A stretch of 19,907 nucleotides of DNA from Promethearchaeota archaeon (GTDB taxonomy: Archaea; Asgardarchaeota; Lokiarchaeia; Sigynarchaeales; SOKP01): assembly GCA_019057975.1 (NCBI GenBank), contig JAHLWJ010000046.1, forward strand, positions 1 through 19,907. The letters are read 5' to 3'. The translations under genes and the position numbers were made by a program. Numbering within the stretch: position 1 is the first letter of the stretch; each line of letters starts with the position of its first letter. Under the pieces are notes generated by a model. It worked only from the letters and a program-made list of their open reading frames with translations. It had not been told where the DNA came from and did no database searches. Below are positions 5,189-19,819 of the stretch, one piece after another.

Positions 5189-6154
5189 ATGATTTTAAAC
5201 CCTGAAAAAGTTTGGGAAGAATTTGAAAATAATAGAATAGATAAATTAACTGCTTTTGAATTATTAACTGCTCTAATTGAAAATAGCAATGACGAAGATA
5301 TTAGAATAAAAGCTATTACAAATTTAATGAAAATTCACATTTTAAACGATAAGTTATTCAACATTCTAGAAAGCTTACTAGTTTCAGATGAAAGTGAAAA
5401 AATAAGATATATCGCAATAAAATATATTGGAGAAAAATTTTTACATAAAGGTTTATCTCTTTTGATTTGGGCAGTTAATTACGAAAAAGATTATAATTCT
5501 TTAATTGAAATAATAAAATTTTTGGGGAAATTAGATAATAAAGAAACCAAATTAGTATTATTAAATGAGATTAGGAAAATTATCAAGACAAAATACTTAA
5601 ATAAAACAAGAAAAATCGAAAATAAAAAATTTAAGAGAGTTTTAAAAAAATTGCTAAAGGCAAAAGATTATGAAGAATTCACTCAAAATGAGCTAGTAGA
5701 AATTTTAATAAATTATTTTACAATTTCCAATTTATTTGAGCACTATTATAATGTTTATTATGAAGTAAATTCACGAAATGGATTAATAGAAAAATTAGAT
5801 TTGTCAGATTACATAGAATATGAAGTAAAAGGAACTCCATGGGGGTGGAAAAACAACATTAATGATCTTTCAGAAATTCCTGGTTTAACTCACTTAAATT
5901 ATATAAAACATATTGATCTATCAAATAATCAAATTAAAAACATTAAGGATTTAATTCATTTTCAAGAATTAACTCATTTAATACTAAATAATAACAAATT
6001 AAGCGCAGAAGTAAACTTAAACTATTTAAAGAATTTACCTAATCTAATCTATTTGGATTTAAGGGGGAATGATATCATTAATATTATTAAGCCTAATGAT
6101 TTTCCTCCACAAACTCGAGTTCTTTTAAAAGATTCTTATATAAAATTAGAATAA
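5189..6154 (+). CDS. HEAT-like and leucine-rich-repeat protein
   Basis: This 321-residue cytosolic protein has no signal peptide or membrane helix. Residues about 18-135 are paired helices with spacing like HEAT/ARM repeats (for example KIRYIAIKYIGEKF at 71-84). Residues 136-165 are a very basic stretch. From about 224 there are leucine-rich repeats with the LxxLxxLDLSxNxI pattern (LNYIKHIDLSNNQIKNI at 236-252, LTHLILNNNKL at 261-271, LIYLDLRGNDI at 286-296). Both repeat types form protein-binding scaffolds, so a role as an adaptor is likely; no enzymatic motif is seen. LRR proteins are common in Asgard archaea. The ATG at 5189 has no Shine-Dalgarno. It converges with the RuBisCO-like gene, the two stops being only 14 nt apart. 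Confidence 0.82.
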   Translation: MILNPEKVWEEFENNRIDKLTAFELLTALIENSNDEDIRIKAITNLMKIHILNDKLFNILESLLVSDESEKIRYIAIKYIGEKFLHKGLSLLIWAVNYEKDYNSLIEIIKFLGKLDNKETKLVLLNEIRKIIKTKYLNKTRKIENKKFKRVLKKLLKAKDYEEFTQNELVEILINYFTISNLFEHYYNVYYEVNSRNGLIEKLDLSDYIEYEVKGTPWGWKNNINDLSEIPGLTHLNYIKHIDLSNNQIKNIKDLIHFQELTHLILNNNKLSAEVNLNYLKNLPNLIYLDLRGNDIINIIKPNDFPPQTRVLLKDSYIKLE

Positions 6155-6168: not shown

Positions 6169-7500
6169 TTAATCTTCTATTAAGGCGGTTTTACCACTAC
6201 CCCATACTCCAAGTGCGATCCCCAATTCTTTTTGTTCTTTAGCAACTTGTTTTACACTTTTTCCTTGCATAACAGCATCAATTGCTTGTCTAAATGCTTT
6301 AGCGCCAGATGTTGGACCATCAGGATGACTGTGAATACCACCACCACTACCAATTAAAATATCATTACCGGCTTCTTTCATACATTTTTCAACCATTCCT
6401 GGGGTAATTCCTCCACTGGGCATTGGTAATGTTGGTCTGATATGTTGAAATGGAAATCGAAGTGCTTTAAGATTCTGCTCATATCTCTCATCTAATATCT
6501 CGGCTTTTCCATAAGGTGCAGGAATTACAACAGTATCAGCTCCACAAATTCGTGGTAACTTTGCAAAAGTTAACATACTAGTCATTCCAGTCCATAATCC
6601 CCCAAAAAAAGTCCCTCCAAAATCCATATGTCCTAAAATAGGGACTTTTATTGATGGGTCTTCAGCAATCTGTCTTAAAGCTTCAAAACCAGTAGTTAAG
6701 TAATTTATCATTAAAGCATTGGCACCTAAATCAATCATTTTATCAGCGTACTCAAACATTTCTGGGAATTTAGTGGTAATATTTATAGTATATAAAGTTT
6801 TTTCTCCTTTTTCTGAGTCTGCTCTATCAACCGCTTCCATAACTTTTACAATCCTATCTTCTAATCGATTGAAAGAAGGGTTTGATATTAATTCATCATC
6901 TTTCACGACATCACAACCACCAACGGCAGCTTTGTATACTAGATCTGCCGCAACATCTGCTGTATGCCCTGTACAAGGCTTTACCATATTATTTAATAGA
7001 GGGCGTTCTGGTATGTTCATTAATTTTCGTAGTCCATCGATCCCAAACTTAGGACCTTTAAAATCTTCTAACCATGCTTTAGGGAATGCCAGATCTACTA
7101 ATTTTAATCCATGGGTAATGCTAATATTACCAATAACTGTTGTAAAAAGCATTGGTATTCCCATTCCTTTAATATTTATAATAGGAAATCCGATTTGTAC
7201 AAAATAAATTCGTTCCTTAATATCTTTAGGCACCCCATATTCTATGTGAGGCAATTCATATACTCCAAGCACTCTTGCTACATGATGTTTTCTAACCTCT
7301 TCTGTCTCAGCAGGAACTCGAACCCATGTTCCTGTTGATTGTTCGATTGCAGCGAATCTAGAGAGATAGTTAACATTTTGTCCCTTAGGGCGTTTTATGA
7401 TATAACTGGCTATAATATATTTTTCTAAATCTATACCGTCTAAGCCAATGGCTTCTGGAGTATCCAAATATTTTTCACAGCTAGGAAAATTTTTATCCAT
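6169..7500 (-). CDS. RuBisCO-like protein, probably form IV
   Basis: The 443 residues span the complete RuBisCO large-subunit fold: N-terminal domain to about 140, then the TIM barrel. By alignment to spinach numbering it retains E60 (E53 here), T65 (T58), N123 (N125), K175 (K174), the carbamate/metal triad K201-D203-E204 (K200, D202, E203 in KDDE), H294 (H291), K334 (K332), S379 (S362) and the phosphate-site glycines (386-388). It lacks T173 (M172), K177 (C176), R295 (M292) and H327 (about V325). Form IV proteins with such changes act as enolases or isomerases, for example in methionine salvage. The intact metal site suggests Mg-dependent enolisation of a sugar phosphate or a similar substrate; the substrate is unknown. 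A divergent form III enzyme is the alternative. It is 116 nt downstream of a longin-like gene and likely has its own promoter. Confidence 0.85.
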   Translation of the reverse strand: MDKNFPSCEKYLDTPEAIGLDGIDLEKYIIASYIIKRPKGQNVNYLSRFAAIEQSTGTWVRVPAETEEVRKHHVARVLGVYELPHIEYGVPKDIKERIYFVQIGFPIINIKGMGIPMLFTTVIGNISITHGLKLVDLAFPKAWLEDFKGPKFGIDGLRKLMNIPERPLLNNMVKPCTGHTADVAADLVYKAAVGGCDVVKDDELISNPSFNRLEDRIVKVMEAVDRADSEKGEKTLYTINITTKFPEMFEYADKMIDLGANALMINYLTTGFEALRQIAEDPSIKVPILGHMDFGGTFFGGLWTGMTSMLTFAKLPRICGADTVVIPAPYGKAEILDERYEQNLKALRFPFQHIRPTLPMPSGGITPGMVEKCMKEAGNDILIGSGGGIHSHPDGPTSGAKAFRQAIDAVMQGKSVKQVAKEQKELGIALGVWGSGKTALIED

Positions 7501-7616: not shown

Positions 7617-8720
7617 TTAATCTTTCGCTTTAGCTTCTGCTTTTAAATTTGTATAAGTGTTTTCAAGTACAGTCAAGTATTCAATTAAAACTTGATCAGC
7701 TTTTGATTTTTGTTCATATACAGTTTTGATAACATTCATTAGGTATTTTGGAAACATTAGATCGAGATGAAAATCAGAAAGAAGCGCATAATATTCATTA
7801 CCTCGTTCATCTTGGAAGACTTGTATCAATTGAGTATCCCAAAGCATCTTTAATACATCATCGAGATCTTCTACTCCTTTCTTTCTAAGTTTCTCCAGGT
7901 CATTCTTAGTAACAACGGCAGTTCTTAATAATCTTAGTGTTTCATAAACTTGTGGATTGGTAAGAACATCTAATATTCTGAGATTATCTCCTTCTGAGGG
8001 TTGATAATTTTGAAAATATCTTCGAACATCAGTTTTATAATTTTCAACAAGTTGAGAAGGTAAACCTCGATCTGCGGGATCTCCTAAAATCATAACCGGT
8101 GGCACGCGCATAAGTACAATGTCTTTAATCAAGAAAATTAGTTCAGAAGGCATGCCTTTTACTGATGCTTCTTTGACTATCTCACGTTTAATGAGTTCCA
8201 TTAAAACACCTTCGACATCAACAAACCCTTGTTTGTATTTATCTTTTAACCAAATCATCAGTTCTGACTTAGATACTACGCCTTCATCCCTTAAACGCTT
8301 AATTATCATACGTTTTATTTCATCTTGATATGTAAGCGCAAGCCGTTGTTCAGTACTTAAAGTGGGATACACTGATAATCGTCGAAATAGTGTAGGGATC
8401 ATTTGTAGAAATGCATCATCTTCCAAATTTGTTAGTATAATTCTAGAAATATCTATTAATCCTTCTTCGTATGCATCTGGGTCATCATCAAGATTCAAGA
8501 GTAGAAGAATGTAGAAGTTTTTCTCTGGTCCAGTGTAATAAGATGCAATGTTCAAAGATCCAATCATTAAACTAATCATCCCTGATTCTCCGCTATATTC
8601 ATGGGTGCTATAAACTTGCATTAGTGTTTTCTGAGTTAATACAATTTCTTCGGGGTATTTAGATAATATATCAGTACCTGCTCTGTCATCCCATCTCATT
8701 ACAACTAATCCAATTGGCAT
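7617..8720 (-). CDS. Longin-like and winged-helix cytosolic protein, copy 1
   Basis: This 367-residue protein has no signal peptide or membrane helix. Residues 1-110 follow a longin/roadblock-like pattern: strand GLVVMRW (4-10), a loop ending KYPEE (21-25), helix (29-40), strands MISLMIG and NIASYYT with FYILLLLNLD (48-78), then helix 83-98. Residues 130-205 look like a winged helix ending in the conserved SVKGMPSELIFLI (187-199). A second winged-helix-like unit spans about 245-315 (VTKNDLEKLRKKGV at 270-283, wing at 300-313). The C-terminus is helical and charged. The domain calls rest on secondary-structure pattern and are inferences. The start abuts the stop of the surface-protein gene and has a strong Shine-Dalgarno, so the two are translated together. 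Copy 2 is at 14337-15443. It may be an adaptor or a GTPase regulator docking on the receptor tail; DNA binding through the winged helices is possible. Confidence 0.85.
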   Translation of the reverse strand: MPIGLVVMRWDDRAGTDILSKYPEEIVLTQKTLMQVYSTHEYSGESGMISLMIGSLNIASYYTGPEKNFYILLLLNLDDDPDAYEEGLIDISRIILTNLEDDAFLQMIPTLFRRLSVYPTLSTEQRLALTYQDEIKRMIIKRLRDEGVVSKSELMIWLKDKYKQGFVDVEGVLMELIKREIVKEASVKGMPSELIFLIKDIVLMRVPPVMILGDPADRGLPSQLVENYKTDVRRYFQNYQPSEGDNLRILDVLTNPQVYETLRLLRTAVVTKNDLEKLRKKGVEDLDDVLKMLWDTQLIQVFQDERGNEYYALLSDFHLDLMFPKYLMNVIKTVYEQKSKADQVLIEYLTVLENTYTNLKAEAKAKD

Positions 8721-11700
8721 TTATTCTACACCTCCTTTAAGATCTTTAAACTCTCCTGTCGTTTCGGGTAAAGTTTTCTTTTTCTTACCTTCAATACCTA
8801 AAACTTTCTGTAATGATAATCCAAGCATTTCCCATCTGTCTCCTAACTGTTTTACCATATATTCTTCCTTTGAAGGATAAAGAAGTGAATCTGGGATAAT
8901 CTTTTTACCCTTGATGTCTTTTCTCATTTTCCTCGCTTTTTTAACAAATGTAGGTATTCTAGCTTGTTGAACGGTCCGATAAATAGCTAAACTCGCAGTC
9001 ACAGCGACAATAGCACCGATAATCATTAAGAGATAGAAGGTTGGGAATCCGAATGTTTCATGCATGTTAACAACAATCGTTATTGGATTTGTTAAAGTAG
9101 AGAAATGTTCCATTTCAATAGTAAGTGTTGCAGTAAATGTTGCAGGCATAAAGAACGCATCAGCGATCTTAGGTATGTTTATTGAATAACTCCCATCTCC
9201 AATATCCGTGAAATTATAACGAGTCCCCTTAAAGGTGATATATAGGTCAGCTCCGATAATTGGTACAGAACTATTTAGATCTGATAGTGCCAATGTAAAT
9301 TGTAATGACGCTCCTGATTCTACTTCAGTTTTTTTTGAAATTGTTCCTTTAAATTCATCTGACCATTCAACATGAAAATTTCTCTTTTGAATGGTTAAAG
9401 AAATTATAGCAATTCGATGTTCATAATTAAGCTTATCTAAAGTCACTATTATTGAATATTCCCCATCAAGAAAAGTCTCTGTATCAAGATCTAAGACAAA
9501 TTTATTTCCTACAGTTACAACTAATTCTCCAGTTTCAGTCGTGCCTGGAATGGGCACTCCCTTTTCAAGTTTCTGTAGAATATAACTTTGTTCATCTAAG
9601 TTAGATATTGGATTTGCACTAAATACATCTGTATACTCAAATGTGAAATTCATTGCTTCAAATATTAATATATCCTTTGAAATATACAATAATCCAGAAG
9701 ATTCATTTATCGTTGTTGGTCTTGAGATGATATTTATATACATCCCAAAATTTTCGAGCTTTGTATAATTTTCAAGATTAACAGTTAAATCTATTCTATA
9801 TTTTCCAACATTAGCTACATCAGAAGTATCGATTGCAAATGTATAATATCCTGCTAAAGCATGAGGCACTAATGAACCAGATCCATAATCCCAATCATAA
9901 GTAAAGGATTCAGGTGTTAGAGTAGAATTAGTATTACTGTCATAATATCTCGCAACAATATTTATTGTAAATCCATAATATTCCGAAATTTCATAATCGT
10001 CACCAACATTTTTCGACAATTCATCTGGCATTGACGTATTATTATGTAATGTTATATCTGTAGGTTTAGCAAATATTGTGATTCCAAAATATGCATCCTC
10101 AGGATCGTTCCAAAATGGTTTATAGCCAGATATTAAAACGTAATAAAATTCGTAATCGTCTCCAGCAGAATACAGACTTGAATTAACTGTTATTGTAAAA
10201 TTACCGGTTGTTGATCCCTGTACCATTGGTTGAACTAATATCTCCTGCCCATATCTTGTGTATATTGTCCAAGTAGCAGATGTTGCATAGCCAATTCGAT
10301 TCCAATCAGGAATCCATGTTTGTCCACTATTATTCGAAGTTTCATAAACTAAAGAAAATGTCATATTTTCTCCACAAACAACCGAAGAAACACCTACGGT
10401 ATTTGTAAAATTAGCTATTCTTTGTGTAAAGTTTAAATCCAGATAAAAAACGAGAGACGATGTATAGTCGAGTGTATAATCATAATAAGGAGTAATACCT
10501 GGGGGCTTAGGTTTATCTGAGGTATTTACAATAAAAGTTTGCTGTAAACTTACAATCCATAATGAAAAATTATAAGATTGTTGATTTAAATACCAAAATC
10601 CAAAATCCTTGGTTAAATCTCCATATGCATAGCCAGTAGTGTCTGTTTCTAAATCTACTACATCAGTACTTGTATTATTTAGTTGTACTTTAATAGTTAC
10701 TCCAGTTACGCTCTCTGATCCCGTATTATCCATTACGCGTATATCTAATTTAGACATTGCTACTGTTACATTTTCTTGATAAATCCCTTGACCTACACGA
10801 TTAATTATGCTTTGATTTAGACGAGTTGGATGAGAATAATAGTCTGGATTGTTATAATATATTGTATAATTATAACTTGTTGCATTTATCCATCGATACG
10901 TTGCTTCTCCAGCGGAATCTAAGGGAATGGTATCCAATACATCTATAGTAGAATTTCCTACATCTACATATCCATAATTTAATGGATCTCCATCCCAATC
11001 TTTCACTTCAAAATCAATTGTCCAAAGATCAGCGGTAATATTAACTGAAACAAATAAACCCTTGAATTCAACCTCTCCAACGGGTTCATTTCTACTATCA
11101 TAAACTACTTTTTCATATGAACCAGAATATGTAGTATAATTCACGGAAATGTTGTAGAAATTAAAAGGGACTTTTGAAAATGCGACAGTTCCATCAGATG
11201 AAGTAAGTTGGGTGTAATCAGCACCATCAATGTTTAAAATATGAGTAGAATTTTTCCATAATGAGACTTTAGCTCCTGGAACTATTCTATCATCAACATC
11301 CTTAACGAGGATATTTACTGTAGCTGCTCTTTCAACTTCACCAAGCAAATCTATATCCAAGGGATAATAATTTGCTAACCATTCTATTTCTTTATCTGTA
11401 AGAGCATAATCAAAATACCTAACATCGTCTAATGCGCCCTGAAAATAATGATTATTTCTTCCACCATCAAAAGTGGTTGCTTCAGAACCATCTCCTATAA
11501 AACCAAATCTTGTTTCTGAAATATCTCCAAGAGTTAAACCGTTCCAAGCATCCCATTCTCTATCTAACAAACCATCGACATAGATCACTTTATCATATTG
11601 TTGAGAGTAATCGAATTTCACGACACAATGATGCCATTCACCATCCTCATCAATTGTTTGCCATCCATTCAAATCATGTGTACCTCCTACATCATTTGAA

Positions 11701-12605
11701 CAATCGAATTCAACGTGCCCATCAGTGGCTCGAAGTCCTGGAGTTCCTGCAGCAAATGTAAAATATTCAGATCTATCAAAATCGAGTATAGACCATCCTC
11801 CTAAATTTAGTCCTATTTTCACCCAAGCTGAAGCTGTAAACTCATAAACTGGGCCACTTAATGTAGTTTGTTGATAACCCGTATGTGATCCTTGATAATT
11901 AAAAGACATATTTAACGCAATAAATTCATTTACTCCATCAAAATTTAGTGAATAATCTCCTTGAACTCCTTGAATATAATTATTATCATCCATATTTACA
12001 AAGGTTCCGTGATATTTATCACTAATCGAATCATATGCCATATTTCCAGAACCTTCTTCAAATTCCCATCTGGCAATTCCATCTGGACAGTAATCCAGAT
12101 AATAACTGGAAGCACGGCCAACAGTACTATTACCGTAATACATATATGTGTCATATTCTTTAGATCCTGCAGTAGAATTTGTTTCAAACCAGACAGTTGC
12201 CAGATCCGCACTTGGAAAATCTTTTTTTATATAGTAATTTCTAATTACTCCCTTTTCCACAATTCTGATGTCGTCTAAATCGTCTTGTAAATGTCCAGAA
12301 TCAAATAGATTTTTCCAATTGAATTGAATCTTAATTATATTATCAGTTAAATTATAATCCCCGGGATTAGTAATGTTAACACATTGTCTCCATTGATAAG
12401 ATACATTCCACCAGAGATCTTCTCCCACTCCATTACTTAAAACTGGTAATATAAATCCTCCTTTGTCATTATTTGCTTCATCATTAATATTGTTCACTGA
12501 ATTACTAGGAATTAATGGAAAAACAACCAAAACTGAACTTACCGTTAGGATCAACAAGAAACTTATTGCTATCCTGTGTTTAAGCTTTTTTTGTTTCATT
12601 ATCAT
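8721..12605 (-). CDS. Giant surface protein with DUF2341, LamG-like and Ig-like domains
   Basis: The 1294-residue product begins with a basic segment and a hydrophobic stretch (11-32), a signal peptide or anchor. Residues 65-165 match the DUF2341 pattern (WWNVSYQWRQ at 65-74, DDIRIVE at 111-117, YMYYGNS at 154-160). Residues 177-415 form a LamG/concanavalin-like unit (ARWEFEEGSG, LNFDGV, WHHCVV, IYVDG, ALDDVRYFDYAL). From 427 a CarboxypepD_reg/Ig-like module (NILVKDVDDR, NISVNYT) and further beta-sandwich modules follow to about 1185. One TM helix spans about 1189-1209, then a basic cytoplasmic tail of about 85 residues. Roughly thirty NxS/T sequons suggest N-glycosylation outside the cell. 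The LamG unit suggests binding of glycans or proteins. The start may be this ATG or the one two codons later. It heads a two-gene unit and is paralogous to 15443-19819. Confidence 0.88.
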   Translation of the reverse strand: MIMKQKKLKHRIAISFLLILTVSSVLVVFPLIPSNSVNNINDEANNDKGGFILPVLSNGVGEDLWWNVSYQWRQCVNITNPGDYNLTDNIIKIQFNWKNLFDSGHLQDDLDDIRIVEKGVIRNYYIKKDFPSADLATVWFETNSTAGSKEYDTYMYYGNSTVGRASSYYLDYCPDGIARWEFEEGSGNMAYDSISDKYHGTFVNMDDNNYIQGVQGDYSLNFDGVNEFIALNMSFNYQGSHTGYQQTTLSGPVYEFTASAWVKIGLNLGGWSILDFDRSEYFTFAAGTPGLRATDGHVEFDCSNDVGGTHDLNGWQTIDEDGEWHHCVVKFDYSQQYDKVIYVDGLLDREWDAWNGLTLGDISETRFGFIGDGSEATTFDGGRNNHYFQGALDDVRYFDYALTDKEIEWLANYYPLDIDLLGEVERAATVNILVKDVDDRIVPGAKVSLWKNSTHILNIDGADYTQLTSSDGTVAFSKVPFNFYNISVNYTTYSGSYEKVVYDSRNEPVGEVEFKGLFVSVNITADLWTIDFEVKDWDGDPLNYGYVDVGNSTIDVLDTIPLDSAGEATYRWINATSYNYTIYYNNPDYYSHPTRLNQSIINRVGQGIYQENVTVAMSKLDIRVMDNTGSESVTGVTIKVQLNNTSTDVVDLETDTTGYAYGDLTKDFGFWYLNQQSYNFSLWIVSLQQTFIVNTSDKPKPPGITPYYDYTLDYTSSLVFYLDLNFTQRIANFTNTVGVSSVVCGENMTFSLVYETSNNSGQTWIPDWNRIGYATSATWTIYTRYGQEILVQPMVQGSTTGNFTITVNSSLYSAGDDYEFYYVLISGYKPFWNDPEDAYFGITIFAKPTDITLHNNTSMPDELSKNVGDDYEISEYYGFTINIVARYYDSNTNSTLTPESFTYDWDYGSGSLVPHALAGYYTFAIDTSDVANVGKYRIDLTVNLENYTKLENFGMYINIISRPTTINESSGLLYISKDILIFEAMNFTFEYTDVFSANPISNLDEQSYILQKLEKGVPIPGTTETGELVVTVGNKFVLDLDTETFLDGEYSIIVTLDKLNYEHRIAIISLTIQKRNFHVEWSDEFKGTISKKTEVESGASLQFTLALSDLNSSVPIIGADLYITFKGTRYNFTDIGDGSYSINIPKIADAFFMPATFTATLTIEMEHFSTLTNPITIVVNMHETFGFPTFYLLMIIGAIVAVTASLAIYRTVQQARIPTFVKKARKMRKDIKGKKIIPDSLLYPSKEEYMVKQLGDRWEMLGLSLQKVLGIEGKKKKTLPETTGEFKDLKGGVE
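8729..8738 (-). promoter_or_regulatory. Strong Shine-Dalgarno of longin-like copy 1
   Basis: AAAGGAGGTG on the - strand lies inside the end of the surface-protein gene, 8 nt before the ATG at 8720. It is an almost perfect complement to the 3' end of archaeal 16S rRNA. With the TAA-ATG junction it points to translational coupling. Confidence 0.85.
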
Positions 12606-12650
12606 TTTTATTTCATTCGTTTTTAATTAAAATTTTATTGAAATACTAAC

Positions 12651-12660
12651 TTTTTATAAA
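12651..12660 (-). promoter_or_regulatory. TATA box of surface protein 1
   Basis: Read on the - strand, TTTATAAAAA is a good archaeal TATA box, centred about 50 nt before the ATG. It would give transcription starting near 12630 and a leader of about 25 nt. No Shine-Dalgarno is present before the start. Confidence 0.55.
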
Positions 12661-13205
12661 TAGGTTTTCAATAATAATACTAATTTTTGTATTTAATTTT
12701 TATCTATAAATAATTAATTTTGTATATCAATCTTAGAATTGTTATTTTTTCTATAGCATTCTTAATCATTAGTGGTCAAAATATTCTATAATCACTATTA
12801 ATTTCTATATAACAAGATTAAGATTTTACTACGAAAACGTTTAATTTTGCTTTAATCGTTATCAGAAATTTTGTTAAAAAATCTTTTAATAAGATAAGAA
12901 ATCTCAGATTCTTCTATTTTTAAAAAATTCCTGAATGTAAAATTAATCGTTTTAAATGAAATAAACCAACTCTGTTATTAAGTATGAAGAATCTAAGTTT
13001 TAATATAACTATCAAAAAGAATTTATAATGTATTTTTACTTTGAATAGTTTAACTACTTCTATCCCCTATATCACACGTTTTCTAATTCCTAAAGATTTA
13101 AATATTTTAATTTAGATTGAAGATTCAAGAAATAATTTCAAAATTTTATGTTTTCTAAATAAATGGAAAATTAGCTTTTCTTTAGACTCATGATTTAATA
13201 ATATA

Positions 13206-13210
13206 GAGGT
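13206..13210 (+). promoter_or_regulatory. Shine-Dalgarno of the longin-GTPase gene
   Basis: GAGGT lies 8 nt before the ATG at 13219, a proper spacing, and supports that start codon. Confidence 0.6.
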
Positions 13211-13218
13211 ACTAAAAC

Positions 13219-14253
13219 ATGTTAAGACAAGTCTACATTTTGAAAGACGACACAATATTGTACAACAAGCAGTTCGGAAAATCAATGTCAATAGAAGATT
13301 TTCAAAAGCTTTGTCAAGAGATTGTTGAAGAAGCTGAAAAAGGAACAAACTTAGACAGCTACGTCTTTTTCAAATATAAAATCGTATATTCACTAGTAAA
13401 AGATGAAGGATTGATGTTCATATTCATCACTGATATAAACGATGAAATAAGGAGGTCTAAGGATGAGCTGGAAAAATTAAAAAAAGAATTTTTAGACACG
13501 TTTGGAGATAGCTTAGAGAATTTGGATCCTGCTCTTATGGAGATATTAGACCCAATTATAGATACGACACATAGAAATCTTAAAACAAAAATTTCTTTAG
13601 TGGGATTTTCAGGGGTAGGGAAAACAACAACAACAAAATTAATCTGTGCTGATGAAATCCCTTCAGTTCATATTCCTACCATAACTGGGAAAATATCAAC
13701 TGTTAAAATAGGAAAACTCTATTTCCATCTATGGGATTTTGCTGGACAAGAACAATTTAGTTATTTATGGAATGATTTTATTCTTGGTAGTGATGCTGTA
13801 CTTATACTAACAGATTCCACATTAGAAAATGTAGAAAAAAGTAAATTTTTTATTGAGTTAGTGAAAGAACATGCTCCTTATGCTCATACCGCTGTAATTG
13901 GGAATAAACAAGATTTACCTGAGGCGTTAAGCATTGAAAAAATTCAAGATATTTTAGGTTTAAAAACTTATTCAATGATCGCAATAGATTCAGAAAACCG
14001 AGACAAGATGATACAGATCGTTGCAGATATTTTAGAAATCAGTACTGATGCATCACCATTGTTAAGACCGTTATTTGAAAGAGATCAGTTAATTAATAAG
14101 GCAAGAACTTGTTTGGAAAACGGTGATATAGCCCAAACTGCGGATTATTTCGAAAAAATATCAGATTTATGTCTTGAATTAGGAGATGATTTCCTTTATA
14201 AGGAGTTTTATGAGAAAGCAAAAAAATTGAAGGGTTATTTAACAAATCAATAA
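13219..14253 (+). CDS. Longin-domain small GTPase with C-terminal helices
   Basis: The 344-residue protein joins three parts. Residues 1-100 have a longin-like layout: strands LRQVYILKDDTILYNKQFG, helix 24-40, strands YVFFKYKIVYSLV and GLMFIFITDI, helix 80-100. Residues 122-275 are a Ras/Arf-type GTPase with G1 GFSGVGKTT (129-137; K135, T136), G2 threonine in PTITGK (153-158), G3 WDFAGQE (172-178; catalytic Q177) and G4 NKQD (229-232). The G5 loop is degenerate (around MIAID, 253-257). Residues 285-340 are paired helices like a TPR/ANTH-type bundle (AQTADYFEKISDLCLELG). No C-terminal cysteine lipidation signal or membrane segment is seen. The GTPase should switch between GTP and GDP states; longin domains in eukaryotes serve GTPases in trafficking and in SRP receptor alpha. 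It is divergent from cassette 1 and convergent with cassette 2, suggesting shared function. Confidence 0.9.
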   Translation: MLRQVYILKDDTILYNKQFGKSMSIEDFQKLCQEIVEEAEKGTNLDSYVFFKYKIVYSLVKDEGLMFIFITDINDEIRRSKDELEKLKKEFLDTFGDSLENLDPALMEILDPIIDTTHRNLKTKISLVGFSGVGKTTTTKLICADEIPSVHIPTITGKISTVKIGKLYFHLWDFAGQEQFSYLWNDFILGSDAVLILTDSTLENVEKSKFFIELVKEHAPYAHTAVIGNKQDLPEALSIEKIQDILGLKTYSMIAIDSENRDKMIQIVADILEISTDASPLLRPLFERDQLINKARTCLENGDIAQTADYFEKISDLCLELGDDFLYKEFYEKAKKLKGYLTNQ

Positions 14254-14302
14254 TATAAAATTCTTTTATACGACTAGTATCTCTCCATAAATTAAGACTA
14301 AT

Positions 14303-14311
14303 AAAAAAAAA
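14303..14311 (-). terminator. T9 run after longin-like copy 2
   Basis: Nine T on the - strand start 25 nt after the stop of the second longin-like gene, within the 83-nt convergent gap to the GTPase gene. It matches the T10 run after the first cassette in kind and position. Confidence 0.45.
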
Positions 14312-14336
14312 TAATAAATAAATATTAAAAATAGAT

Positions 14337-15443
14337 TTAATCTTTTTCTTCTACTTGAATTTTAGTTGGTCGGTAGGCATCATCAAGTACATTTAGATAT
14401 TCAATTAGAACTCCATTTGATTTTGATTTTACTCCATATTGATAGATTATTGTTTTCAACATATATCTAGGGTATATCAAAGAACTATGAAAGTCTGTGA
14501 GTAACGCATAATATTCGTTTCCTTTAGCATCCTGAAAAACGTGTATCATTTGATTATCCCATAACTTCTTTAATCCGCTATCGATGTCATCAACTCCTTT
14601 TTTTCTCAGCTTCTCTAAGACGTTTTTTGTAACTATTGAGATTCTAAGTAATTTCAAAATTTCATACACTTGAGGATCTGCTACTATTTCATCTAAAATC
14701 TTAAGATTGTCATCATCTGATGGACGATATTTTTGGAAGAATTTTTTAACCGCTACATTGTATTCCTCTGTAAATTTTTCAGGAAGCCCTCGTTCAGAAG
14801 GATTTTTAAGTAAGTTAATTGGTGGCCTTCGAATCATAAATAAATCATTTATAAGAAAGATTAATTCTGATGGCATACCTTTAACGGATGCTTCTTTTAT
14901 TATTTCTTTTTTGATTAATTCCATAAGAATAGCATCCACATCGAAAAATCCCTCCCTATATTGGTCTTTTAACCATATTTTCAATTCTGATTTTGTTATT
15001 ACGCCTTCTTCTCTTAACCTGTTTATAATTAACCTATTCACACTATCAAGATATGTAATAGCTAAACTTTGCTCTGCATTTAAATGAGGATATGTTGATA
15101 ACCTTTGGAATAAGAAAGGGATCATTTCTAAATACGCTTTATCTTCATAGTTTTGGAAAATTACACGTGAAATATCTGCTAATCCACCCTCAAATGCATC
15201 AGCATCTTCATCCAAATTCAAGAGCAGAATAATATAAAGAGGTTTTTCTCTTCCAGTGTAATATGAAGCAATATTTAATGGGCCTACTAGTAAACTAATC
15301 ATTCCCGGTTCCCCTGTATATTCATGTGCCGCATATATTTGCATTAATGTTTCCTCACTTATCACAAGTTGTTCAGGATATTTTGCAAGAATCTCTGTGC
15401 TTACTTTAATATCCCATCTCATTATTACTAATCCAATTGGCAT
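14337..15443 (-). CDS. Longin-like and winged-helix cytosolic protein, copy 2
   Basis: This 368-residue paralogue aligns with the 7617-8720 product along the whole length with essentially no gaps, and well over half of the residues look identical by eye (MPIGLV.MRWD, HEYTGEPGMISLL, LNIASYYTG, KEASVKGMPSELIFLI, KLRKKGVDDID, GNEYYALLTDFH). The conserved parts include the start of the longin-like unit, the first winged helix and the second wing (residues about 300-320). The C-terminal 25 residues differ most. Its ATG overlaps the TAA of the surface-protein gene by one base (TAATG). Retention of the same partner order and coupling in both cassettes implies that each adaptor works with its own receptor. 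Function is not established; the structural assignment is inferred from pattern. Confidence 0.85.
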   Translation of the reverse strand: MPIGLVIMRWDIKVSTEILAKYPEQLVISEETLMQIYAAHEYTGEPGMISLLVGPLNIASYYTGREKPLYIILLLNLDEDADAFEGGLADISRVIFQNYEDKAYLEMIPFLFQRLSTYPHLNAEQSLAITYLDSVNRLIINRLREEGVITKSELKIWLKDQYREGFFDVDAILMELIKKEIIKEASVKGMPSELIFLINDLFMIRRPPINLLKNPSERGLPEKFTEEYNVAVKKFFQKYRPSDDDNLKILDEIVADPQVYEILKLLRISIVTKNVLEKLRKKGVDDIDSGLKKLWDNQMIHVFQDAKGNEYYALLTDFHSSLIYPRYMLKTIIYQYGVKSKSNGVLIEYLNVLDDAYRPTKIQVEEKD

Positions 15444-18400
15444 TAGATTTTTTCCCCTCCTTCTTTAGATATCTTGTCTTTTATTGGTGACTTCTTAGTT
15501 TTTAAATCTTGTATTCCTAATGCTTCATCGATAGAAAGACCAAGTTCCCTCCAATCATTCCCGAATAGTTTTGCTATCATTTCTTCTTTTGTTGGAATTG
15601 AAATTGTCTCTGAAATTTTCTTCTTTGATTTGATGTACCCTTTGATTTTCCGTATCTTCTTAACATGTTTAGGAATTCTTGCTTGTTGTATGACTCTATA
15701 CCCAACGAGACTTCCTACTACACCAATTACTGACGCAGTAATCAGAATGAAGTAGAATGTTGGCATTCCTGGAAAAATCTCTTCCATCTCAACTACAACA
15801 GTTATAGAGATTTCTTGCGATGTAAAATTAGCCATTTCTATGGTCATTTTACCTACAAGCGTTCTTGATGTGAAAAATGTATCAATACTACTCGTCAGGA
15901 TCGTTCCAGTGTAGACTCCTGGTGTAGTCTCTGAAAAAGGAATATCAACACCGTTGATATTTAATGTAACTTGAGCCTCTTCTAGATTTATATCGCCGCG
16001 TGTGAGATCTATTAAATTAACTACTAATTCTATATCATCTCCTTGATCGACTTTGACTTGATTATTACTTCCTATTCCTGTTATGGCAACATCAAATTCT
16101 CTTGACTTAATCTCGAAGTTTACATACGCAAATCGTGGTTCAAAATTTTCCTTTTGTAAGGCAACATGAAGGAAATAAAACCCAACAGCTCTTAGTTCAG
16201 TATTGAAGTCCAAAGAGTACGATTTATTTATATTTTGAATTAACGTCCCGGAACCTTGGCTTCCGGGGATTCGGTTTCCCAACTCATCTAATTCATACCA
16301 ACTGTAAGTTGCGATAGCTAAATCTCCAAGAATATCAAAAGTATTAGCATCTGCATAATAAAATGTGAAATAATAAGCATCCTGAACCCAAATCTTTGGA
16401 CTAAGATATACTAAATCTGATTGATCATTAAGTGTGGTTTTTCTTTCAAGGATATTAAGGTAAACTGAGAAAGAAAGTGCAGTATAGTTTTCAAGTGAAG
16501 CTGAAATAATAATAACTTTTATACCTGTACTTTGAGCATCAGAAGTATTAAGAGTAAATGTATAATATTGACTATCTAAAGGATCAGAATAGAAAGTGAT
16601 AGGGTCAAGTCCAATCCAACTATACGTTAGAAATGCGTTTTCTAAATAAAATCCAGCTTCAATTGAATATTTAACTGTAATGTTTACAAGTTCATTAAAA
16701 TAATCTGTATATGTTTTATCTGATACTAGTAAACGTGTGTCATAATCATGTGCACTGATCGTTGTTGGCAATGCTTTTAATTTAACTAAATATATTATCG
16801 GGGTTGGATTGTCATATGTAGGGTGATACCCGTTTATTGCGACATCATAATATTCTTTATCATTTCCGGCAGAGAGTTGATCTGAATTAATCGTCACTGA
16901 AAAATTACCATTACTAACATATGTCATTTTCTTTGAGATCAATATTTCTTCTGAACCAGCCACCTTTATAGTCAAATAGCAACTTGCTGGAGGTTCTGAA
17001 ACATAATCCCACGTTTGCCAGTTATCTGTAGTGGATGTAAAATCTGCCCAGAAACTTATAGTTTCGCCCCAGTATGCTTCACCTGTCCCATCTGTTAAAT
17101 TGAATGATGTATCATAATTAGTAATATTTACTCCTGTTCCTTCTAATCTAAGGTTAAATGTAATTGAGGAATCGCCATACAAGGTATAATTATATTCATA
17201 TATTTTAGTGGTTCCTGGGATCCACTGTGGAGGGTCTACATATGTTATATTAAAAGGAGCATCAGTCATATTGGCAACATCTATAGAGAAATTATATTTT
17301 CGCCCTATCAAAAACCAGAATGGTGTTTCATAATCATTTTTTGGACTATATGCATATCCATCTCTGTCGTTAAATGAGGACAAATTGACTAATGATTGTC
17401 CGGTTAAATCATCGATTACTTTGATTGTAACACTCCGAGGATCTCCCTCCGGGGATTCTGCACTTCCGTAATTTTCTATTACTCGGATGTTTAACATTGC
17501 TAAAGCTGTTCTATTATATATATTACAGGTTTCTATTAAATCAACCGTAATTACCCCATCACATGGTTCAGTAGAATTAAATCCATTAACTTCTATTAAT
17601 AATCCATATACATCATAATTATCGTTTCTTAGATTCTCATTGTCTATATGTGCGATATCTAGTTCGATAAAATCATCTATATCACTTGTGGTATATGATT
17701 CAGCATAAATAAGATTGCCATCAGTTGTATTATCCTTATCTATATAATAAATAGAGATATCAGTAAGATATGTCTTCATATTCGATAATGTAATATTAGC
17801 TTTAATTATCCTTTTATTCTCTAGATCAGTCCTAGACCCGTTTGTATAGAACCGTTCGCTAACTGCATAAGTAGGAAAACTACCAATATTAGTTTCATTT
17901 ACATTTATAGTATGATGTCTAAATTTTACATTATCTTTAGCGTAATTACTCCTGTATATATAGCTTTCATTCAATGATGTAGGACTAAAATCACCATAGT
18001 CATCATTATTATAATAAACTTTATAATAATAACTTGATTGATTAAGCCATCGAAATGTTGCTTTACCGTTGGTATCAAGAGTTAAAGTATCTAATAAAAT
18101 CCCACCTAAACTATCGTTTATTTCAATATAACCGTAAGTTAATGGAATCCCATCCCAATCCACAATTTCAAAATCTATTGTCCATATATTTGTATAAACA
18201 TCTTGAGTATAAGAAATTCCATTGAAATAAAATGGACCTTCTCCAGAATCATAGCTATTAAAAACTTCTTCTTCCAAAGATCCTAACGTATAATTAACAG
18301 AAATATTATAATAACCATTAGGTATATCATTGAAAGTAATTCTCCCGTTAGAAGTTGTTCCGTTCGCAACGTTATATTCGGGTGATCCCTTCTCATAAGT

Positions 18401-19819
18401 ATTATCAACAATCATTACTTCTGCTGTAGGAACACTCCTTCCATCAACATCTTTTACTATTATTTCAACCGATGATATTTGAGCTTGTAATTCTTGGATT
18501 TCTGCTGATATTGTGTAGTTAAACCTTACGTCATCTACTTGAAAAAATCCTGATTTTATCGTTTGAGTAGTGCCATCTTCTGTACCCCACATACCAAATT
18601 CTATGAATATTTCTTCACCCATATAATCAGTAACATCAATCTCTAAAGAACCAGTTAAATCTCCATCTGAACTCGAATCTGATCTTGTATCCATACTCGG
18701 GTCTATTTCAAAATGTTCCTTTAATTCAGTATGATATAACAATTTTTTTTTATTTGGTGAAATATAAGCATATCCTCCATAGGTCTCCACCCAACTATCA
18801 TAGCCACTTCCAATATTTTCATGCAAATCGACATCAGCGGTATATTTAGAATCTGATCCATTACAAATCCTTAAAAAATATCCATCTTCAGAAATGCCAA
18901 TACCTCCCTCTTCATCTTCAAAAAACCAAGTTCTTACATTGCGATTAACATTCACACTAATGGTTCCTCCTTCTATTATTGGAACTTTAAAAGGATAAGA
19001 ATAAAACGTTCCTACATAATCACGACATGCTGCTTGAGGGAGGAAAGAGCCCTTGCCACCCCACTTATATGCATAATCACCAGATTCTACTCTTTCAGCC
19101 ATGGAAATATCATCTATATGGACTAGATTATTTTCAAAATTATCATAGCTGTCCCCTGAATAATTGAAGGCTTCCCTGCTGATACTTATATCTTTAATTT
19201 GGTCAACTTGATCATGCGAAAAAGTCCATCCATAAGGATCAAAATATTGAGCAGTACTATTATCTAATTCAAAATCCCCGTTTTTAATCCAACCAAAACT
19301 ATCTAAAATTCCGGAAGCTTCATTACTTCCAACAGTTTTATTGAAGTACATGTAAGTATCGTATTCAGTCGTGCTTTTTGAAATGTTAGTGTCAAAATAT
19401 ACCGTTGCTAAACCTGGTGAGGGATAATCTTTTACAACATAATACTTACGCTCAATTCCATTTTCCACTATTCTTATATCGTCTAAACTCGACTGGATTT
19501 TCCCTGCTAATTCTATGTAATTAAAACTAACAGATATTCCATAATCCGTAAAATTGAAATTATTTGTGTTTGTGATTTCTAATAATTTTCGATACCCAAA
19601 AGAAGTATCCCACCAGGTATCGTTGCCTAAAACACTTGGTTTTAAATCTTCGATAATATTAAATTCATTATCTTTTTTACTATCTTCACTTAAATTCTCT
19701 GAAATGTCTGTAAAATTAGAAAGATTCATCAAATATGCTGGAAAAAGCATCACCAGTAATATTATAAATAGGAATGATACCTTTTTTAATCGAACTTTAT
19801 GTTTATTTAGTATTTTCAT
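15443..19819 (-). CDS. Giant surface protein with DUF2341, jelly-roll-like and Ig-like domains
   Basis: The 1458-residue product has a basic N-terminus and hydrophobic stretch 14-32 (signal peptide), then a DUF2341-like domain 69-172 (WWDTSFGYRKL, DDIRIVENG, YDTYMYF). Residues about 176-435 begin NGDFELDNS and end FFQVDDVRFNYT, the usual frame of a jelly-roll, carbohydrate-binding-type module; this replaces the LamG-like unit of the paralogue. From 450 the CarboxypepD/Ig-like module (VEIIVKDVDGRSVPTA, NISVNYT, WTIDFEIVDWDG) resumes similarity with the paralogue and continues through several beta-sandwich modules. One TM helix lies at about 1354-1374, followed by an 84-residue basic tail conserved with the paralogue. 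Many NxS/T sequons indicate an exposed glycoprotein. The ATG at 19819 is preceded by a TATA box; an ATG 10 nt upstream is out of frame and runs straight into a stop. Confidence 0.88.
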   Translation of the reverse strand: MKILNKHKVRLKKVSFLFIILLVMLFPAYLMNLSNFTDISENLSEDSKKDNEFNIIEDLKPSVLGNDTWWDTSFGYRKLLEITNTNNFNFTDYGISVSFNYIELAGKIQSSLDDIRIVENGIERKYYVVKDYPSPGLATVYFDTNISKSTTEYDTYMYFNKTVGSNEASGILDSFGWIKNGDFELDNSTAQYFDPYGWTFSHDQVDQIKDISISREAFNYSGDSYDNFENNLVHIDDISMAERVESGDYAYKWGGKGSFLPQAACRDYVGTFYSYPFKVPIIEGGTISVNVNRNVRTWFFEDEEGGIGISEDGYFLRICNGSDSKYTADVDLHENIGSGYDSWVETYGGYAYISPNKKKLLYHTELKEHFEIDPSMDTRSDSSSDGDLTGSLEIDVTDYMGEEIFIEFGMWGTEDGTTQTIKSGFFQVDDVRFNYTISAEIQELQAQISSVEIIVKDVDGRSVPTAEVMIVDNTYEKGSPEYNVANGTTSNGRITFNDIPNGYYNISVNYTLGSLEEEVFNSYDSGEGPFYFNGISYTQDVYTNIWTIDFEIVDWDGIPLTYGYIEINDSLGGILLDTLTLDTNGKATFRWLNQSSYYYKVYYNNDDYGDFSPTSLNESYIYRSNYAKDNVKFRHHTINVNETNIGSFPTYAVSERFYTNGSRTDLENKRIIKANITLSNMKTYLTDISIYYIDKDNTTDGNLIYAESYTTSDIDDFIELDIAHIDNENLRNDNYDVYGLLIEVNGFNSTEPCDGVITVDLIETCNIYNRTALAMLNIRVIENYGSAESPEGDPRSVTIKVIDDLTGQSLVNLSSFNDRDGYAYSPKNDYETPFWFLIGRKYNFSIDVANMTDAPFNITYVDPPQWIPGTTKIYEYNYTLYGDSSITFNLRLEGTGVNITNYDTSFNLTDGTGEAYWGETISFWADFTSTTDNWQTWDYVSEPPASCYLTIKVAGSEEILISKKMTYVSNGNFSVTINSDQLSAGNDKEYYDVAINGYHPTYDNPTPIIYLVKLKALPTTISAHDYDTRLLVSDKTYTDYFNELVNITVKYSIEAGFYLENAFLTYSWIGLDPITFYSDPLDSQYYTFTLNTSDAQSTGIKVIIISASLENYTALSFSVYLNILERKTTLNDQSDLVYLSPKIWVQDAYYFTFYYADANTFDILGDLAIATYSWYELDELGNRIPGSQGSGTLIQNINKSYSLDFNTELRAVGFYFLHVALQKENFEPRFAYVNFEIKSREFDVAITGIGSNNQVKVDQGDDIELVVNLIDLTRGDINLEEAQVTLNINGVDIPFSETTPGVYTGTILTSSIDTFFTSRTLVGKMTIEMANFTSQEISITVVVEMEEIFPGMPTFYFILITASVIGVVGSLVGYRVIQQARIPKHVKKIRKIKGYIKSKKKISETISIPTKEEMIAKLFGNDWRELGLSIDEALGIQDLKTKKSPIKDKISKEGGEKI
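15454..15462 (-). promoter_or_regulatory. Strong Shine-Dalgarno of longin-like copy 2
   Basis: AAGGAGGGG on the - strand lies within the end of the surface-protein gene, 10 nt before the overlapping ATG. It mirrors the arrangement in the first cassette and supports translational coupling. Confidence 0.8.

Follow-up and report, generated by a model that had tools for sequence, protein, structure and literature searches.

In this study, we analyzed a 19,907-nucleotide stretch of DNA from a Promethearchaeota archaeon (contig JAHLWJ010000046.1; hereafter the window), and found that it carries a gene system composed of a surface protein (S), an adaptor (A) and a GTPase (G); fetched loci are numbered below with the prefix L and genomes with the prefix G. 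The system is real and occurs in several Asgard lineages: S and A are conserved neighbors and are fused in one clade, the tails of S share a signature next to the membrane, A and G recur side by side, and longin folds are recognized in A by modeling and in G by profile comparison. Its function is putative. We assign a probability of about 0.55 to the reading that S, A and G form one membrane module which couples a receptor to a GTPase.

The window contains two minus-strand cassettes pairing S (approximately 1,300-1,460 amino acids, aa) with A (approximately 367 aa), and the open reading frames (ORFs) bear out a preliminary description of this DNA in this respect (Table 1). In the ORF map of the window, no gap separates S1 from A1, and S2 and A2 overlap by one base. 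Both partners are paralogous between the cassettes, as had also been claimed: A1 and A2 share 61% identity across their full length (E 3e-175), and S1 and S2 share a C-terminal stretch of ~690 aa at 34% identity (E 1e-86) as well as an N-terminal region at 30% (E 2e-65).

To describe the S-A pairing, we used a Lokiarchaeia (Loki) set of 69 loci obtained by scanning GTDB contigs with two peptide patterns, which favors close relatives. These loci held 86 adaptor genes, or 85 distinct ones because L015 and L032 overlap. By an automatic strict rule, S adjoined A or lay in the same ORF for 72 of the 85. The 13 failures comprised four adaptors at a contig end, which were untestable (L020, L042, L044 and L059), four whose S was cut by a contig end (L001, L023, L024 and L025), three that precede S, at 204-382 bases (L010, L014 and L030), one (L034) whose S consisted of membrane helix and tail only, and L016:3842, which is itself truncated and has no S. 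After inspection, S was paired with A in 80 of 81 testable cases, so that the pairing suspected earlier is indeed conserved; as a control, an S-like neighbor was found for only 59 of 908 other genes of at least 200 aa in the fetched loci. The L034 case, upstream of 10001 in G003, is an S gene eroded to its membrane helix and tail beside an intact adaptor.

The tail of S carries a further mark of this pairing. A signature of the form [RK][IVL]Pxx[VIT]K ('RIPxxVKK'-type), defined post hoc from the tail alignment and located after the S membrane helix, was present in 79 of 90 unfused S-A pairs and in none of 187 non-adjacent membrane proteins from the same loci; 11 fusions were excluded from this count because they had been chosen with a similar pattern. 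The 11 misses included three QIP variants and four upstream genes mistaken for S. Most signature tails were net positive (68/79, the other 11 not), and charge complementarity fits the window, where tails of +10 and +11 face adaptors of -13 and -10. A 13-row profile of the transmembrane helix and tail gave 18 matches at E<=1e-20 in nine genomes (nine of them already in the profile), 17 of which lay beside or were fused to A and one of which was separated from it by a second S. Among 13 weaker matches, about four were near an A, and the remainder were not near A or were undecided.

In addition, S and A form a single complete ORF seven times, in five genomes (L055, L198, L199, L200, L201 and, twice, L202; 2,087-2,673 aa). 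These fusions and their truncated kin make up one Loki clade (20 rows; SH-aLRT, a likelihood-ratio branch test, 99). A G-family gene or fragment lay beside the fusions in L055, L200, L201, one of L202, and L209, and in G111 four adaptor matches stood in a row with long open frames, two of which were seen whole. The opposite gene order, A-S, with a similar signature was found in L158, L159, the first L166 pair and the Thor-type L177, L180 and L181; thus, the S-A linkage survived rearrangement. A mirror-tree comparison of A with the S tail gave r 0.91 (75 pairs; maximum 0.27 in 2000 label shuffles), and we set it aside as evidence because shared species history alone can produce such a correlation. 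A within-locus swap check agreed in 47 of 66 comparisons, in a set that mixes several paralogue types, and this counts against a simple joint duplication at all loci.

Each S of the window has an N-terminal hydrophobic segment and, by hydropathy, only one C-terminal hydrophobic segment, followed by a tail of ~80-90 aa. N-x-S/T sequons numbered 33 in S1 and 36 in S2, all on the outside part (shuffled expectation 13.8 and 17.7 per protein, respectively). S1 matched Laminin_G_3 (LamG/ConA-like; E 1.1e-13) and, slightly below its cut-off, DUF2341 (E 2.8e-4), and ten relatives (S proteins or fusions) had LamG, FG-GAP, carboxypeptidase-regulatory-like, MG-type or DUF2341-like parts, or none recognized. 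Mean pairwise identity was 66% for A and 47% for the tails (75 Loki pairs), and 31% for the 400 aa outside the membrane (70 pairs). Taken together, the diverse outside domains and this gradient of identity indicate that the exterior of S varied while A was conserved.

Direct Pfam and NCBIfam scans of the window A and S2 proteins recognized little. According to AlphaFold2 models of A1 and of its relative in L055, A consists of a longin domain and two winged helices; the preliminary description had called it a longin-like/winged-helix protein. The longin was modeled confidently, with the element order b-b-a-b-b-b-a in both models and a predicted local distance difference test score (pLDDT) of ~84-91 in L055. 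No PDB sequence matched it at E values up to 10, also when a profile was used. In fold comparisons it also matched sigma and zeta-COP folds; many longins tied within 1 Z in these lists, which identifies a longin and not NPRL2 specifically. The A family profile matched winged helices of the HlyU/ArsR type (E 0.0018), and Pfam HTH_20 and TrmB were found in 11 and 10 of 24 family members, respectively. Several Thor adaptors (P0127, P0205, P0219 and others) bear public names as ArsR/HxlR/MarR-family transcriptional regulators, which may be a misannotation based solely on the winged helix. The adaptors of L168, L169, L171, L172 and L174 are longer (525-619 aa), with an extra C-terminal part in which Pfam recognized nothing in the two scanned (L174 and L169). 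Stand-alone longins of ~127 aa occur near G and A in G088 (L158:6245-6625, L159:7230-7619 and L160:5299-5688); a profile comparison placed them with the A-type (probability 99.9) and not the G-type. In G004 and G006, similar short longins are found at a distance of 2-3 kb from long G genes.

The gene between the cassettes had been described as a longin-GTPase. Its Arf-like nature is supported by Pfam Arf (E 2.7e-19 in the window, and matched in 19 of 19 aligned members); the P-loop, switch I Thr, switch II G-Q and NKxD motif of Arf/Ras-type small GTPases are all conserved, and G129, G134, K135, T154, G176, Q177, N229, K230 and D232 are invariant in 19 sequences. The longin part was recovered with a 13-sequence profile of the N-terminus, which matched AP-2 sigma in PDB (residues 1-97, E 7e-7), followed by delta-COP, AP-3 sigma, VAMP7-type and AP-1 sigma (E 0.04-0.2), but not with the single window sequence (best PDB longin match E 0.19; Pfam Longin E 0.017, below cut-off). 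Judged from this profile, the N-terminus of G is a sigma-type longin. The canonical N-terminal amphipathic, myristoylated helix of Arf was not found in G, where the longin domain occupies that position. Long G variants stand beside S-A fusions at L200:14499-16454 and L209:10249-12069; in the former, the Arf-like domain is followed by a Ras-like one (485-645; PF00071 E 1.1e-45 for the protein as a whole), and the latter shows the Arf-like domain only.

Linkage of A to the longin-GTPase, which the preliminary description had suggested looking for, was found in several lineages. In a tree of 145 adaptors (quick method without mixture model, long branches flagged), the clade of the window A2 comprised 18 rows, or 17 distinct genes including the window's (SH-aLRT 100), and all 17 had a G neighbor. 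In the A1 clade, G was near only where an A2 cassette stood beside. G lies between the cassettes, as described earlier, but its relatives show that it belongs with the A2 cassette and not equally to both. On the tree, the G label changed 15 times and the fusion label six times, the latter number being inflated by truncated copies and by the mislabeling of L169, a long adaptor that has no S. Outside this set, we analyzed 40 lower-scoring Asgard adaptors, which represent 39 of the 40 regions L158-L197 (the L162 adaptor was missed under a longer overlapping ORF, and L166 gives two); these regions were chosen non-randomly, by match strength and before their neighbors were seen, and some are in Loki-type genomes. 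G lay within 1.5 kb in 24 of the 40, often 12-40 bases downstream. An S neighbor was assigned by rule in nine, among which L161, L163 and the second L166 adaptor, without signature, are doubtful, and S or G (G within 7.5 kb) in 31. Neighborhoods with all of A, S and G recurred in L158, L159, L165, L177 and L180, and G001, G002 and G003 each have five or six full-length G-family genes, of which two adjoin an A. Across 227 genomes of the phylum, both A and G were present in 156, A only in two, G only in seven and neither in 62, so that 218 agreed (cut-offs: A E<=1e-5, and G E<=1e-40, the latter set after seeing a gap from ~1e-26 to 1e-45; absence outside the listed matches was inferred from the match lists). 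Given this agreement and the lineages that have A and G without S, the broader association appears to be that of A with G, and S the varying part.

If the three proteins act together, S would probably be a glycosylated, receptor- or adhesin-like protein whose RIPxxVKK signature would keep A on the cytosolic side of the membrane; pairing, fusion and signature suggest that the S tail binds A. A would present its longin on a winged-helix scaffold, and G would bring its own AP-sigma-like longin before the Arf-like GTPase. The two longins may pair and together cup the Arf-like domain, setting its nucleotide state. That A binds G is suggested by their neighborhood and, by analogy, by the habit of longins of pairing and cupping small GTPases, as in C9orf72-SMCR8-ARF1. 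What S meets outside, or where S is located, would then set the GTPase state at that patch of membrane; in this scheme A may act as a GTPase-activating protein (GAP), a guanine nucleotide exchange factor or a scaffold, and the signal would run from outside to inside. The binding of a ligand by S and an effect on membrane or cytoskeleton behavior, both proposed in the preliminary description, are putative parts of it. A tentative extension is that this was a pre-eukaryotic Asgard pathway from transmembrane receptor to small GTPase, in which tail, A and sigma-longin Arf-like G met in one complex, and that the eukaryotic longin GAPs (NPRL2/FLCN/SMCR8) and the longins of Arf-dependent coats possibly derived from its parts later on.

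Several observations weigh against such a module. In 51 of the 85 Loki adaptors, mostly A1-type, no G-family gene was present in the fetched stretch (flanks <=10 kb, many shorter), so if G acts with these adaptors, it would not do so as a neighbor. The Jord/Frey-type genomes (L183-L191, in which A is followed by G at 12-40 bases) and several other lineages have A and G without an adjoining S, so S is not a fixed part. The joint absence of A and G falls mostly in one genome block and amounts to few independent events, and some of the weak A matches (to 1e-5) are to partial relatives. Charge complementarity does not extend to the Thor type: beyond the signature, the tails of L180 and L181 are strongly acidic (net -68 and -78), although A is acidic there too. 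A comparison of the A and G longin profiles gave no significant match (hhalign probability 5.9, E 0.006), and no invariant or nearly invariant Arg was found in the A longin of 24 family members, which makes an NPRL2/SMCR8-type finger in A unlikely. Finally, the model of a natural fusion left the tail undocked (pLDDT 27-58 in blocks over residues 1-90); the tail was modeled with at most one relative (added tail fragments were misaligned by MAFFT and dropped), and this result neither supports nor refutes a contact between tail and A.

Outside-in signaling and inside-out cargo placement both fit these data. The strongest rival, nearly as good, is that A together with G makes up a proto-coat or cargo adaptor that reads the S tail in order to place, retain or deliver S at the surface or at protrusions, with no outside signal being read; taken by itself we consider it somewhat doubtful. 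The G longin is nearest to AP-2 sigma, with weaker matches to delta-COP, AP-3 and AP-1 sigma, all of which belong to Arf-dependent cargo adaptors, the A longin matches sigma and zeta-COP folds too, a conserved juxtamembrane signature on S tails would suit cargo recognition, and adaptin HEAT-repeat proteins are enriched in Ca. L. ossiferum according to a figure legend (PMC9834061). However, no large adaptin-like protein was recognized in the Pfam scan of the window, to which this search was confined, and the single S-A polypeptide of one clade is a poor fit for a cargo adaptor. Cultured Lokis are also reported to have almost no internal membranes (PMC10933270), and two vesicles are noted in PMC9834061.

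That S-A is a structural anchor only, an adhesin tied to a cytosolic plug or the cytoskeleton, with the A-G neighborhood reflecting a separate and older function, seems unlikely. It would account for the Loki adaptors lacking G and for the A-G pairs without S in Jord/Frey-type genomes, but not for the recurrent A-S-G triples, which also occur in the A2 clade. Still less probable is that A is a membrane-tethered transcription factor, with S as sensor, the two winged helices acting on DNA and G incidental. The winged helices do score as ArsR/TrmB/HTH_20, and the public regulator names of Thor members (ArsR/HxlR-family) agree with this. Yet all 24 members of the A family examined carry a net acidic charge. 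The presumed recognition helices were delimited from the model; in 23 of 24 members the one in winged helix 1 is without net positive charge, whereas the one in winged helix 2 is positive in none of six Loki members, though in 11 of 24 overall. In NPRL2-like and ESCRT-II proteins, winged helices serve to contact other proteins, and both the longin N-terminus and the recurrent G partner would be left unexplained.

The receptor-GTPase module may be compared with known systems. The C9orf72-SMCR8 longin heterodimer is an ARF GAP in which two longins cup ARF1 (PMC8213707), and the longin-based Arf regulation proposed here resembles it; in contrast, the GTPase itself carries one of the longins here, the other is joined to winged helices instead of DENN, the A longin has no conserved arginine, and a surface protein is attached. 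In GATOR1 NPRL2, which together with NPRL3 and DEPDC5 targets Rag GTPases, the order of longin and then winged helix agrees with the A model. Foldseek aligned the two across domains (~300-420 columns), but with a root-mean-square deviation of 17-24 and a whole-chain template-modeling score of ~0.2. Unlike NPRL2, A lacks the conserved longin Arg, and unlike NPRL2/NPRL3 it has no sequence-level match to a longin chain, its partner is an Arf-like longin-GTPase and not Rag, and its other partner is a membrane protein. An 'NPRL2-like longin domain' category is enriched in Ca. L. ossiferum according to a figure legend (PMC9834061), and A may belong to it. The similarity of the G N-terminus to AP-2 sigma and the Arf-family GTPase recall AP-1/2/3 sigma and COPI delta/zeta with ARF1, whereas in G the sigma-like longin and Arf are in one polypeptide, and no adaptin large subunit was recognized in the window.

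In Myxococcus, MglA-MglB provides a prokaryotic example of a roadblock-fold platform for a small GTPase (PMC10933270). The fold of MglB is roadblock and not longin. To our knowledge, that pair has neither a receptor nor winged helices. Asgard fusions of longin or roadblock domains with GTPases have already been described (PMC10933270), with the same longin-GTPase architecture as here; the available sections of that paper contain no mention of a sigma similarity, and they state that genome layout makes it difficult to match Asgard GTPases with their partners, whereas the recurrent A-G and S-A neighborhoods give such a match here. No paper describing the S-A-G linkage was found in the open-licence literature searched. 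Asgard genomes encode dozens of small GTPases and longins without known partners, and layout, fusion and tail signature match one GTPase family to one longin adaptor family and one surface-protein class, giving named pairs that can be tested. If the contact is real, it would show how Arf-type switches were connected to an archaeal cell surface at a time before there were internal compartments.

Table 1. Features of the S-A-G region, in window coordinates
Feature	Position	Strand	Basis
A1, adaptor, 367 aa: longin, two winged helices, C-terminal helices	7617-8720	-	ORF, model
A1 longin domain, ~residues 1-117	8370-8720	-	A1 model; limits from L055 by alignment
A1 winged helix 1, ~residues 123-206	8103-8354	-	L055 model, transferred by alignment
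A1 winged helix 2, ~residues 243-322	7755-7994	-	Model; HlyU/ArsR-type profile matches; Pfam HTH_20, TrmB
S1, single-pass surface protein, 1294 aa: LamG (252-407), DUF2341-like, Ig-like parts	8721-12605	-	ORF, Pfam, hydropathy
S1 transmembrane helix, ~residues 1183-1212	8970-9059	-	Hydropathy scan
S1 juxtamembrane signature RIPTFVKK, opening the basic tail (net +10)	8937-8960	-	Tail alignment
G, 344 aa: AP-sigma-like longin, Arf-like GTPase, short C-terminus	13219-14253	+	Pfam, profile
G N-terminal longin, ~residues 1-100	13219-13518	+	13-member profile vs AP-2 sigma
G Arf-like GTPase domain	13573-14022	+	Pfam Arf E 2.7e-19; motifs conserved
A2, paralogue of A1, 368 aa; gene convergent with G	14337-15443	-	ORF, comparison with A1, tree
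S2, single-pass surface protein paralogue, 1458 aa	15443-19819	-	ORF, hydropathy, comparison with S1
S2 juxtamembrane signature RIPKHVKK (tail net +11)	15656-15679	-	Tail alignment

With regard to the remaining genes, a RuBisCO-like protein (6169-7500, minus strand; PF00016 E 4.1e-48, below all listed NCBIfam cut-offs) is encoded directly downstream of A1 and is adjoined by a gene for a HEAT plus leucine-rich-repeat protein (5189-6154, plus strand). In many Loki loci, genes of 394-470 aa (mostly 438-456) follow A1-type adaptors, and a gene of ~315-332 aa takes the position of the HEAT/leucine-rich-repeat gene, both noted by size and position. The window also codes for a 396 aa protein with a zinc-ribbon-like start, as well as three plus-strand genes which, from their sequence, we take to be his-like.

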